From Labedella phragmitis (lineage in GTDB: Bacteria; Actinomycetota; Actinomycetes; Actinomycetales; Microbacteriaceae): a DNA stretch of 64,000 nucleotides. The notes beneath the pieces were generated by a model. It was given only the letters and a program-made list of their open reading frames with translations. It had not been told where the DNA came from and made no database searches. The stretch lies in NCBI RefSeq assembly GCF_004078635.1, contig NZ_RZNB01000002.1, forward strand, positions 372,001 to 436,000. Reading direction: 5' to 3'. Below, one piece after another: positions 36,227 through 47,811 of this stretch. The translations under genes were made by a program, and so were the position numbers. Position 1 is the first letter of the stretch; each line of letters starts with the position of its first letter.

Positions 36227-37147
36227 ATGAAGGCAGCCGTAGAAGAACGTGTCGGAACCGAGCAGATCGGATTCCGCCGGAAGGCGAAGGCCTACGTCGC
36301 TCTCACCAAGCCCCGTGTCATGGAGCTCCTCCTCGTCACGACGATCCCGGTGATGATCCTCGCCGAGGGCGGGCTGCCGCACTGGTGGCTCATCGTGGCG
36401 ACGGTCCTGGGGGGTGCGATGAGCGCCGGCTCCGCCGCCTCGTTCAACATGTACATCGACCGCGACATCGACAAGGTCATGAAGCGGACGAAGAATCGTC
36501 CGCTCGTGACGGGGGAGCTGTCGCCGCGCGAGGCCCTCGTGTTCGCCTGGACGCTCGCCGTCGTCTCGACGGTCTGGCTCCTCGTCACGACCAATCTCCT
36601 CGCTGCTTCGCTCTCCGTCGCCGCGATCGCTTTCTACGTCTTCGTCTACACGCTGTGGCTCAAGCGGCGCACCTCTCAGAACATCATCTGGGGCGGCATC
36701 TCCGGTTGCTTCCCTGTGCTCATCGGGTGGGCCGCCGTCACGAACTCGCTCGGCTGGGCTCCCCTCATCCTCTTCGGTGTCGTCTTCCTCTGGACGCCTC
36801 CACACTACTGGCCGCTGTCGATGAAGTACCGCGACGACTACAAGTCGGTCGGTGTCCCGATGCTCGGCGTCGTGCGCGGCCGCGCACAAGTGGGCCTGCA
36901 GGTCATCCTGTACACGTGGGCGACGGTCGCGTGCTCGCTCCTGCTCATCCCCGCTGCGGGAATGGGTGTCGTGTACACCGTCACGGCGATCGCGGTCGGC
37001 ATCTGGTTCATCTACGAGACCCACCGCCTGTACAACCTCGCGATCCGCCATGAGGCCGTCTCGCCCATGCGCGTGTTCCACGGCTCGATCAGCTACCTCA
37101 CGGTGCTGTTCCTCGCGATCGCGATCGACCCGCTCCTGCCCTTCTAG
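36227..37147 (+). CDS. ctaB: Protoheme IX farnesyltransferase (heme O synthase)
   Basis: This 306-residue integral membrane prenyltransferase converts heme B to heme O for cytochrome oxidase. It has about eight to nine hydrophobic helices and the two Asp-rich motifs of the UbiA superfamily: [20 protein letters not shown] (about 83-102) and [16 protein letters not shown] (about 202-217). A ribosome-binding site GAGGAG precedes the ATG. It is divergent from tkt and convergent with ctaA, which acts on its product. Confidence 0.96.
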
Positions 37148-37286: not shown

Positions 37287-38258
37287 TCAGCCGGCGGCGC
37301 TCCCGGAGACGGGCTGGCGCTCCGCCTCGCCGACCGTCGTGGGCACCGGGCTCTTGAGGGAGAGGACGACCGTCGTCATCGCCGCCGTCAGGAGGCACGC
37401 GAGGACCATGTGGATCCCGACGAGGATCTCCGGCAGCCCGAGTCGCGCCTGGGTGACGCCGACGATGATCTGGACGATCTCGACCGCGAGCAGCCAGAGG
37501 ACGAAGGTCCGTGTCCGCGGCCGCGGCGGGAAGCGGACGGCGCCGACGACGAGGACGACGGTGAGCGCGAGTGTCGCGTAGGCGGGCCAACTGTGGACGT
37601 GCTGGAGCAGTTCGGGGTCGAGTCCGTTGCGCTTCGCGCCGCCGTCGCCGGCGTGCGGGCCGGAACCCGTCGTCAGGATGCCCACGATGACCGTGACGGC
37701 CACGAAGAACGACGTCAGGTGGGTCACCCCGGCGTACCAAACGGGAGCGACTCGGGCCCGCTCGCCGGGCGCCTCGTAGACGCGGTAGACGAGGACGGCC
37801 GCGAGGACGACGAGGACGACGCTGAGCACGAAGTGCAGGCCGACGACGTAGGGGTTCAGGCCCGTGAGCACGGTGATGCCGCCGACGATGGCCTGCAGGA
37901 AGACGCTCGCCGCGGGGATGATCGTGAGGACGAGGAGGTCGCGGCGCTGGGCGCGGTACTTGATCACGTACAGCACGGCGAGGATCGCGATGATCTCGAC
38001 GACGAAGAAGAGTGTCCGGTTGCCGAATTCGATGATGCCGTGGATGCCCATCTCGGGAGTCGTCACGAACGAGTCGGCGGTGCATCGCGGCCACGTCGGG
38101 CACCCGAGACCGGCACCCGTCAGGCGCACGGCTCCTCCGGTGCCGACGATGACGGTCTGCGCGACGAAGTTCGCCCACGCGATGAATCGGACCCGACGAT
38201 CGATCCCGGTTGGCAGCCAGTGCCAGAATCGCTGCAGTGTTCGCGTGGCGGCGCTCAT
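37287..38258 (-). CDS. ctaA: Heme A synthase
   Basis: This 323-residue membrane protein oxidises heme O to heme A. It has about eight transmembrane helices and the expected heme-ligand histidines: HGIIEFGNR, HFVLSV, HVHSW and GIHMVLA. A cysteine pair, GCPTWPRC, lies in the first outer loop, as in the actinobacterial/Bacillus type. It is convergent with ctaB across 139 nt. The spacer to the suf operon (332 nt) separates it from sufB. Confidence 0.95.
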   Translation of the reverse strand: MSAATRTLQRFWHWLPTGIDRRVRFIAWANFVAQTVIVGTGGAVRLTGAGLGCPTWPRCTADSFVTTPEMGIHGIIEFGNRTLFFVVEIIAILAVLYVIKYRAQRRDLLVLTIIPAASVFLQAIVGGITVLTGLNPYVVGLHFVLSVVLVVLAAVLVYRVYEAPGERARVAPVWYAGVTHLTSFFVAVTVIVGILTTGSGPHAGDGGAKRNGLDPELLQHVHSWPAYATLALTVVLVVGAVRFPPRPRTRTFVLWLLAVEIVQIIVGVTQARLGLPEILVGIHMVLACLLTAAMTTVVLSLKSPVPTTVGEAERQPVSGSAAG

Positions 38259-45584: not shown

Positions 45585-46436
45585 TCAGGGGCGGGGGGCA
45601 CCCGCATCGAGCAACTCGTCTTCGATGTCCGCGTCCGTGCGCTTCTGCTTGCGCTTCGCTTCGCGCTCCTCGGCTCGCCGACGCTCGTCCGGGTCGTCGG
45701 CGTTGAGCGCTCGGTACTCCTGGCGCACGGCGTAGCCGAGGAAGACGAAGCCGAGGATGCCGAAGATGAGCCACTGGAACGCGTAGGAGAGGTGAGCACC
45801 CTCATCGGGGACCGGGCGTTCGACGGACGCGGGGCGCGGTTCGGCGGGAGCGGGTGTCTCGTCCGCGAGAACCCCGTATGCGCCCGTGTAGGTCGGCTCA
45901 CCGATGCGTTCGGCGAGATCGGGGAGGTGGATGGTCGCGATCTGGCCTTCGCCGGCTCCACGGTTCGCGACGGTCGGTTCTCCCGGGCGTAATCGGACCG
46001 TGACGGTGACATCTCCCGTCGGCGCGTCGGGCACGACGTCGGGGAGGTCCTGCTCGCTCCCCGTCGGGAGCCACCCGCGGTCGACGATGAAGACAATTCC
46101 GTCGTCCGTGCGGAAGGGCACGAGGACGTCGAAGCCCGGCTGACCGCCGCGCGGACGATTGCGGACGAGGGTCTGCTCGTCAGTGAGATAAGTGCCCTCG
46201 AGGAGCACCGGTCGCCACTCGTCGTCGGGGTCGAACGTGTCGAGTGCAGGCAGCACGTCGGCCACGTCGACGGGTTGGGCGTCGAAGTTGCGGTCGACGA
46301 GGTCGATCTCCGCGGTCTTCTCCGCACGGCGGGCGAGCTGCCAGTTGGACAGCAGCACACACACCACGGCGAAGACGATCGCGACGGCGAGGTAGCCGAA
46401 CCACCGCCGGCTGATGGCGAAACGCCACTTGTTCAC
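45585..46436 (-). CDS. SURF1-family cytochrome oxidase assembly protein
   Basis: This 283-residue membrane protein has an N-terminal helix (about 12-34), an extracytoplasmic domain with WRPVLLEGTY, PGFDVLVPFR and VDRGWLPTG (all SURF1 hallmarks), and a second helix near the C-terminus (LSYAFQWLIFGILGFVFL), followed by a charged cytoplasmic tail. SURF1 proteins help insert heme A into cytochrome oxidase, which fits ctaA and ctaB in this window. The GTG start overlaps the upstream small gene by 4 nt. It is convergent with the ABC-F gene. Confidence 0.93.
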   Translation of the reverse strand: MNKWRFAISRRWFGYLAVAIVFAVVCVLLSNWQLARRAEKTAEIDLVDRNFDAQPVDVADVLPALDTFDPDDEWRPVLLEGTYLTDEQTLVRNRPRGGQPGFDVLVPFRTDDGIVFIVDRGWLPTGSEQDLPDVVPDAPTGDVTVTVRLRPGEPTVANRGAGEGQIATIHLPDLAERIGEPTYTGAYGVLADETPAPAEPRPASVERPVPDEGAHLSYAFQWLIFGILGFVFLGYAVRQEYRALNADDPDERRRAEEREAKRKQKRTDADIEDELLDAGAPRP

Positions 46437-46657
46437 GGTGTCGTCTCCTCCTCGAGCGGACGCACCGCGACGGGGAAGTCGCGAGCGGAGAGGAACTCGC
46501 TCAAGTAGGCGACGTGCTCTTCGCATGCGAGCCAGATCTTCGTGCGCTCGGGCCCGTGGATGCGCGGGTTGCGCCACTCCACGCGCGATGTCGCGGTCTC
46601 GGAGCACCCCGCTCGAGAGCACGTGTGCCGATCGGGCACGGAGCCGAGGCCGATCAC
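46433..46657 (-). CDS. Conserved small Cys/His protein, coupled to SURF1
   Basis: This 74-residue soluble protein shows a possible metal site: Cys13-X4-Cys18 and Cys45-X2-His48, in HTCSRAGC and WLACEEH. The middle RVEWRNPRIHGPER segment is typical of a small actinobacterial family. In my recollection it is often called 'acetone carboxylase' in databases without support. Function is unknown. GTGA overlaps at both ends (with the DUF3099 gene and SURF1) show translational coupling and suggest a role with SURF1. The start is GTG. Confidence 0.82.
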   Translation of the reverse strand: MIGLGSVPDRHTCSRAGCSETATSRVEWRNPRIHGPERTKIWLACEEHVAYLSEFLSARDFPVAVRPLEEETTP

Positions 46658-46968
46658 CGTCCGTCTCCGGCGGACCGATCCGCCGCGGGCGGCGGCTCGA
46701 CGAACCCTCGATCGATCGCGAGGGATTCCCGCGGCCCCGGTGCCTCGACCCGGCCGGCGCGGTTGTCACCGACGTTCGCGAGGACCACGGCGATGTAGGG
46801 AAGGACGATCGCCCCGAGAGCGAAGACCCACATCCACCAACCGGGAACCACGAAGACGAGCAGGATGCACGCCATCCGAACGCTCATGGCGATCGAGTAC
46901 TTGCGCATCCTGCTGCGGCGTTCCTCGTCGGGAGACGCCGGGAGAGAGGTGATGGAGGGTTGTTTCAT
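46654..46968 (-). CDS. DUF3099-family membrane protein
   Basis: This 104-residue protein with two membrane helices (about 27-45 and 48-66) matches the DUF3099 family: an N-terminal SLPASPDEERRSRMRKY segment, then VPGWWMW between the helices and an acidic/Pro-rich tail. Function is unknown. It heads a three-gene unit ending in SURF1, overlapping the next gene by 4 nt. The ATG at 46968 is preferred. A GTG two codons upstream is possible, but the TAGGCT at 46979-46984 would place the transcript start inside it. Confidence 0.82.
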   Translation of the reverse strand: MKQPSITSLPASPDEERRSRMRKYSIAMSVRMACILLVFVVPGWWMWVFALGAIVLPYIAVVLANVGDNRAGRVEAPGPRESLAIDRGFVEPPPAADRSAGDGR

Positions 46969-46978
46969 CGTCACGAAC

Positions 46979-47001: not shown

Positions 47002-47100
47002 GTAAGGCGGCCGGGGCGACCTTCACGGCCCCCTCGCATTCTCCGGCCGGGTACCCGGCCGCCGAAGCCCGCACTCGCACGACCGCTCGGATTGGATCTC

Positions 47101-47811
47101 ATGACTACAGCACGCACCGTTCTCATCACCGGAGGGAACCGGGGCATCGGCTACTCCATCGCGGAGGAATTCATCGTCGCCGGGCATCGCGTCGCGGTGA
47201 CCGCCCGCTCGGGTTCCGGACCGGAGGGCGCGCTCACGGTCCGGGCCGACGTCACCGACACGGCTTCCGTGGATGCTGCGTTCTCCGAGGTCGAGCGCGA
47301 GCTCGGACCGGTCGAGGTCCTCGTCTCGAACGCGGGCATCACCGCGGACACCCTCATCATGCGGATGGCCGACGACGACTTCGACCGTGTCGTCGACACG
47401 AACCTCGGCGGATCGTTCCGCGTCGTCAAGCGCGCGTCGAAGGGCATGCTCAAGGCCCGCTTCGGTCGCATCGTGCTCATCTCGAGCGTCGTCGGCCTCT
47501 ACGGTTCGCCCGGCCAGGTCAACTATGCGTCGTCGAAGGCCGGCCTCGTCGGGATGGCTCGATCGATCACGCGCGAGCTCGGTGCGCGAGGGATCACCGC
47601 GAACGTCGTCGCCCCGGGCTTCATCGAGACCGACATGACCGACGCCTTGCCAGAGGAGCAGCGGGCCGAGTACCTCAAGTCGATCCCGGCCGGCCGCTAC
47701 GCGACGGCGTCGGAGGTCGCGAAGGTGGTGACGTGGCTCGCAGGTGACGACGCCGGATACATCTCGGGCGCCGTCATCCCCGTCGACGGCGGCCTCGGCA
47801 TGGGGCACTGA
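47101..47811 (+). CDS. FabG-like short-chain dehydrogenase/reductase
   Basis: This 236-residue SDR has the NAD(P) loop TGGNRGIG (10-17), SNAG, the catalytic Ser in LISSVVG, and Tyr142 and Lys146 in YASSK. The overall sequence is close to 3-oxoacyl-ACP reductase FabG. No fatty-acid synthesis genes or inhA are adjacent. It could be FabG itself or a paralogue with another carbonyl substrate. The ATG at 47101 is preferred over a TTG three codons upstream. It is convergent with serB, with a palindrome between. Confidence 0.85.
   Translation: MTTARTVLITGGNRGIGYSIAEEFIVAGHRVAVTARSGSGPEGALTVRADVTDTASVDAAFSEVERELGPVEVLVSNAGITADTLIMRMADDDFDRVVDTNLGGSFRVVKRASKGMLKARFGRIVLISSVVGLYGSPGQVNYASSKAGLVGMARSITRELGARGITANVVAPGFIETDMTDALPEEQRAEYLKSIPAGRYATASEVAKVVTWLAGDDAGYISGAVIPVDGGLGMGH

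Follow-up and report, generated by a model that had tools for sequence, protein, structure and literature searches.

Between a DUF3099 gene and SURF1, the 64,000-nucleotide stretch of Labedella phragmitis DNA analyzed here (the window) carries a short gene for a cysteine- and histidine-containing protein, called mini below. The initial annotation proposed that mini is a small metal-binding partner in oxidase assembly. Taken further, this would make it an accessory of SURF1 that works from the cytosol when heme A is inserted or cytochrome aa3 is assembled. The question raised by this locus is whether the contact between the two genes reflects such a partnership or mainly an inherited gene order.

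A conserved reading frame between DUF3099 and SURF1

The mini reading frame is real, with the GTG start and the length given in Table 1, and lies on the minus strand, which the initial annotation had left unstated. Cys13-x4-Cys18 and Cys45-x2-His48 are present as claimed, and so is the overlap of 4 nt with the gene on either side. When the reverse complement is read, the nucleotides shared by DUF3099 and mini, and those shared by mini and SURF1, are in both cases GTGA. Translational coupling of the DUF3099 gene, mini and SURF1 is plausible on this sequence evidence. The placement of ctaA and ctaB at about 8 kb was likewise borne out. Each SURF1-positive genome listed from the window's order, that of L. 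phragmitis included, has two SURF1 matches, and mini adjoins one of them.

Table 1. Features of the window discussed in the text, numbered from its first nucleotide.
Feature	Position	Strand	Remarks
mini-protein (mini)	46433..46657	-	GTG start, 74 residues plus stop; predicted single zinc site C13, C18, C45, H48
SURF1	45585..46436	-	next gene downstream of mini; PF02104 E 1.4e-40, NF050123 E 6.5e-82
DUF3099 gene	46654..46974	-	previous gene, upstream of mini; PF11298 E 3.7e-23
fabG-like short-chain dehydrogenase	47092..47811	+	divergent neighbor, in conserved block; PF13561 E 3.3e-54
ctaA (COX15/CtaA family)	37287..38258	-	outside block; PF02628 E 9e-22; 7.3 kb from SURF1
ctaB (heme o synthase)	36227..37147	+	outside block; NF003349 E 3.7e-135; 8.4 kb from SURF1

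Relatives of mini were found to be encoded at 73 loci in one scan of the genome collection. The fabG-like gene was present at 69 of these by tblastn. A start codon allowing the 4-nt overlap with SURF1 was found at 54 of the 73 loci and one allowing the overlap with DUF3099 at 60, both counts being upper bounds because the starts were picked to fit. All record titles name genera that we take to belong to the window's class, with the exception of one MAG labeled Acidobacteria. The block is present in this MAG, its mini being 61 percent identical to that of the window, and the MAG is probably misbinned. The L. phragmitis genome has one match, and nearly all carriers among the searched genomes have a single copy of mini.

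The possibility was considered that so short a frame, with a GTG start and without a family model, is spurious or non-functional. That view is practically eliminated by the class-wide conservation of the protein and by the invariant motif held in frame, which lie far beyond chance. The alignment of 34 members has 16 invariant columns (C13, S14, C18, A22, W28, N30, P31, H34, R38, K40, W42, C45, H48, L52, L56 and R59), 15 of which are kept in a 60-row alignment of the core, R38 being nearly invariant there. About 15 invariant residues are packed into a stretch of 47. S14 and W28, neither of which was demanded by the search pattern, are invariant in 132 distinct cores; the invariance of the ligands in the same cores is circular because they are part of that pattern. 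The four Cys/His residues noted initially thus stand, but further invariant residues had been missed, above all W28, N30, P31, H34, K40 and W42. At four loci of the window's order, mini is extended at its N terminus, and a short run rich in leucine, such as MDLLGSLGG or EFDLRSRL, precedes the first Cys; the window protein has no such extension.

Searches with 34 members at E up to 1 identified no Pfam, NCBIfam or PHROGs model covering mini. The best PHROGs match (phrog_2857, five of the 34 members, E 0.0059), an NCBIfam match to one member (E 0.0088) and the Pfam family DUF1441 (five of the 34, E 0.018) were taken as noise. No copy was detected in the 'phages' collection at E up to 1, and none of the 13 stretches of viral_contigs that matched the mini pattern was confirmed. 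A literature search found no paper on DUF3099, on DUF7455 or on SCO1820, presumably the tag of the Streptomyces homologue, and the titles of the best matches did not name the mini family. A conserved protein, class-restricted in the samples and without a family model, represents a clear annotation gap.

Gene order around mini

The linkage to SURF1 was evaluated in an order sample of 149 genomes, 100 of which have mini. SURF1 lay within 400 nt on the same strand in 84 of the 100 carriers and at 1.1-1.25 kb in another 10; five had no near SURF1 among the matches listed and one had none. Outside the order, SURF1 was within 400 nt in 0 of the 58 class carriers with a listed SURF1 position, and the smallest gap among the positions listed was 1,100 nt. 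Gaps between listed positions are 2-20 kb in f23, a large family; in families f21 and f36 mini and the listed SURF1 copy are either on different contigs or separated by 0.8 to 2.7 Mb. Since many genomes have a second, unlisted SURF1, stretches of 7.5-18 kb around mini were fetched and checked by tblastn. The choice of these 22 stretches, all outside the order, favored unlinked cases; 16 of them showed no SURF1, including all four from f21, both from f36 and all three from f24. The survey of gene neighborhoods proposed with the initial annotation thus revealed a linkage that is tight within the window's order, but not stable across the family.

Outside the order the genes are often arranged as DUF3099, mini, moaA on the reverse strand, and SURF1. 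In the cases where mini and SURF1 are 1.1-1.25 kb apart and a moaA position is listed, moaA lies between them on the opposite strand. The same block with mini was seen in genome G022 and at a Nocardioides and a Marmoricola locus, and without mini in genome G051. The simplest reading is that this block is old and that direct contact of mini with SURF1 arose where moaA no longer stood between them, as in most of the window's order, leaving DUF3099, mini and SURF1 as one overlapping string; the direction of the change is our inference. In the five genomes of the window's own family with a listed moaA position, moaA is at least 61 kb from mini or on another contig.

Where positions are listed, 48 of 75 genomes have moaA no more than 2.5 kb from mini, and 35 of 80 have SURF1 that close. 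One alternative is that mini, which is convergent with moaA, is a factor tied to molybdenum cofactor synthesis. The frequent proximity of moaA favors this role, and moaA is 2-18 kb from mini in 8 of the 12 f21 carriers, where SURF1 is elsewhere or absent; a MobA-like gene was also near mini at one checked locus. However, moaA is more than 25 kb away or on another contig in 20 of the 75 genomes, is not beside mini in most of the window's order and, being on the opposite strand, does not form one operon with mini. MoaA was detected in 100 of 101 mini carriers of the class sample described below (Fisher p 5.3e-7, kinship ignored), but its presence in 223 of the 256 genomes means that this co-occurrence says little. 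A role in molybdenum cofactor synthesis is accordingly very unlikely.

Two further arrangements were observed. Most sampled members of family f10 are without mini; in two that have it, the gene is far from the usual block. It is flanked in one by PAP2 and YkuD genes, and the same two gene clusters are present in the other; shared flanks away from the block suggest transfer or relocation. A dodecin-like gene, named by eye and forming one blastp cluster, recurs near mini at seven loci, often where SURF1 is elsewhere.

Distribution across genomes and plasmids

A class sample, in which the same 256 genomes were used for each gene and the MoaA cut-off was E 1e-60, contained mini in 101 genomes, SURF1 in 216, DUF3099 in 246 and a COX1-family gene in 254. 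Mini was present in 96 of the 216 genomes with SURF1 and in 5 of the 40 without it (Fisher p 8.4e-5, kinship ignored). SURF1 occurred without mini in 120 of the 216 genomes, and in 22 of the 121 SURF1-bearing genomes of the order sample. In a phylum sample, 13 of 197 genomes had mini, all 13 in the window's class; five listed genomes without mini are of the same class, and the other 179, 164 of them beyond the shown part of the listing, are of other classes if the listing follows kinship, as its shown part does. Phyla beyond Actinomycetota were covered solely by the pattern scan that gave the 73 loci. On the samples seen so far, the family is restricted to the window's class.

With a COX1-family gene in 254 of 256 genomes, the class sample could not discriminate, and the order sample was used instead. 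A COX1-family (PF00115) protein was present in 100 of the 100 mini carriers, and mini in 0 of the 26 genomes without one (Fisher p 7.5e-16, kinship ignored). The 20 listed of these 26 genomes belong to families f42, f43 and f50, plus one of f48. Confinement to so few family labels points to a small number of concordant losses. The 22 order genomes that have COX1 and SURF1 but not mini comprise all ten of f45, 10 of the 11 of f7 and two of f48. In genome G290, which has a weak PF00115 match, no SURF1, COX2, COX3 or mini was found.

Six carriers are without detected SURF1. Five are in the class sample and are 91 to 100 percent complete, so that some of these absences may be assembly gaps. One of the five, G060, has mini and COX3, while COX1, COX2, SURF1 and DUF3099 were not found; at 91 percent completeness and 350 contigs it is weak evidence. 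The sixth, G293 of the order sample, is the one complete genome seen with mini but without the aa3 set (2.0 Mb, 100 percent complete). Its mini is intact, has all invariant residues and adjoins fabG. Searches of the genome found no SURF1, COX2, COX3 or aa3-type COX1, and the 19 kb surrounding mini showed no DUF3099. The sole PF00115 protein of G293 carries a cytochrome-c-like domain of NorB (PF22085). A genus mate, G352, has mini, SURF1, COX1, COX2 and COX3. The tie of mini to the oxidase thus holds for the COX1 family as a whole within the order sample, but a strict co-occurrence with the aa3 oxidase is broken by G293.

Plasmids were also searched, and a mini match was found in 4 of 72,556 records. 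Mini and SURF1 overlap on the plasmid of Kocuria rosea strain 13, where CopC and CcdA genes lie next to them, and a Microbacterium plasmid carries the usual block with mini. On the K. rosea RP1 plasmid an intact mini is followed by a 42-residue protein that resembles, by eye, the start of SURF1; 2.4 kb upstream of mini there is also a full-length SURF1. On a Citricoccus plasmid mini has lost C13 and C45, and the adjoining SURF1 is annotated at 301 residues. The plasmid evidence on the link between mini and SURF1 cuts both ways. At the Kocuria and Citricoccus plasmid loci, SURF1 occurs with annotated cytochrome c oxidase assembly, CopC, CopD or CcdA genes, possibly as mobile islands for copper handling and oxidase assembly.

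Predicted fold and proposed role

AlphaFold modeled the full protein with a pLDDT of 86.3 and its 60-residue core with a pLDDT of 96.9. The core model has strands at residues 15-19, 31-35 and 54-58 and a helix at 40-49 (core numbering), in the order Cys knuckle, beta hairpin, helix and beta strand. C36 and H39 of the core, which are C45 and H48 of the full-length protein, lie directly before the helix. By eye, the 74 residues show neither a signal peptide nor a membrane segment. The protein is likely to have a structural zinc site, which would fit both the sequence and the predicted model. Cys13 and Cys18 in the knuckle, together with Cys45 and His48, would hold a single zinc ion pinning the hairpin and helix core, and the invariant W28-x-N30-P31-x2-H34 loop and R38-x-K40-x-W42 strand may form a face that binds a partner, either protein or RNA.

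How such a protein relates to SURF1 can be judged from the distribution and gene-order data. Surf1 is required for the bc1-aa3 supercomplex of C. glutamicum, and its exact role is called unclear, in the accessible part of PMC9145763; the words zinc and hypothetical are absent from that part. This requirement argues for the accessory role proposed initially, as do the adjacency within the window's order, the confinement of mini to COX1-family-bearing genomes of the order sample, the association with SURF1 at class level and the overlapping pair on the strain 13 plasmid. However, the two genes abut in none of the 58 listed cases elsewhere, carriers occur without detected SURF1, many genomes keep SURF1 and COX1 without mini, and on two plasmids one partner is decayed while the other is intact: a mini short of two ligands beside a full-length SURF1 in Citricoccus, and a truncated SURF1 start behind an intact mini in K. 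rosea RP1. Carriers with SURF1 elsewhere or not detected, and G293, in which no aa3 oxidase was found, contradict the initial proposal in part. The data point only weakly to SURF1 as the partner, and a dedicated SURF1 accessory is an unlikely, if still credible, identity for mini.

The explanation we favor, to which we would give about an even chance of being right, is that mini is a cytosolic adaptor stabilized by zinc, with a broader role and linked to SURF1 mainly by inherited synteny. If the contact is mainly inherited gene order, mini would be neither an obligatory nor a SURF1-specific factor of oxidase assembly. Members that are aerobic and bear the oxidase tend to retain mini. The pattern of occurrence fits a link with aerobic life rather than one with SURF1 alone. 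Some observations run against synteny as the whole account: the exclusive occurrence with COX1 in the order sample, the SURF1 association in the class sample and the regularity of the 4-nt overlaps seem to go beyond synteny, and the strain 13 plasmid has the overlapping pair beside CopC and CcdA. A related proposal is that mini, as a cytosolic zinc protein not described before, serves aerobic respiration generally and not SURF1 alone, for instance by attending to subunits of heme-copper oxidase or NorB type while they are nascent or free of cofactor. It is suggested by the PF00115 protein in every order carrier, that of G293 being of NorB type, but G290 has a weak PF00115 match without mini and 22 oxidase-bearing order genomes do without the gene; so general a respiratory function is decidedly unlikely. 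With its partner identified, the proposed adaptor could contribute a further step to actinobacterial physiology, possibly one close to the role of Surf1. For surveys of gene order, the lesson is that a change of neighbor can make an operon look functional even though the contact is derived.

Resemblance to known small proteins was sought by structure and profile comparison. Foldseek searches of the PDB with two mini models yielded no match that reached E 0.001, and second looks with VIA (best Z 4.8 and 5.2, both phycobilisome chains) were not informative. CHORD (PF04968) was rejected: it matched residues 12-58 of mini with 14.1 bits against a cut-off of 24.6 bits and only 2 of the 34 members at E up to 1, and the PDB match to RAR1 (E 0.92 with the single sequence) was gone with the family profile. 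The best match among viral models, p76 of Myxococcus phage Mx8 (E 4.6e-3), is Cys-rich with a different ligand set; Pfam gave no hit for it at E up to 1, and its matches in the phage collection were confined to the two Mx8 records.

Another candidate was DUF7455 (PF24254), a family without known function, and mini might be a divergent relative. Five DUF7455 proteins were among the best 39 rows of the Foldseek search against viral models (E 0.079 to 0.82). When the family was aligned with mini by hhalign, using a DUF7455 alignment of 14 rows from phage and plasmid records, C13/C18 and C45/H48 fell on the DUF7455 cysteines and second histidine in one of two comparisons, a register without statistical support. 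The hhalign probability was 0.2 percent in both comparisons (E 0.33 and 0.39), and DUF7455 was absent from the families matched by the 34 mini members at E up to 1, while five real DUF7455 proteins scored E 2.1e-9 to 2.9e-24 with the same Pfam library. The W-x-N-P-x2-H and R-x-K-x-W motifs are also missing from the DUF7455 set. A divergent kinship is improbable; mini may resemble DUF7455 but cannot be filed there.

Other actinobacteria-specific proteins have been described, according to the accessible part of PMC2714318. Compared with SURF1 and other cytochrome oxidase assembly factors, mini shares the genomic neighborhood in the window's order, but it has no apparent membrane segment, is not always kept with SURF1 and persists in a genome, G293, in which no aa3 oxidase was found. 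Like DUF7455, it is a small protein with a Cys-Cys pair followed by Cys-x2-His, an arrangement found there in actinobacteria and actinophages, but the first pair is Cys-x4-Cys in mini and Cys-x2-Cys in most DUF7455 rows. The element order of treble-clef zinc fingers is knuckle, hairpin and helix. Mini is a candidate for this fold class: the elements of its models would fit that order, with two of its putative ligands at the start of the helix, although no solved structure stands out at the Foldseek threshold.
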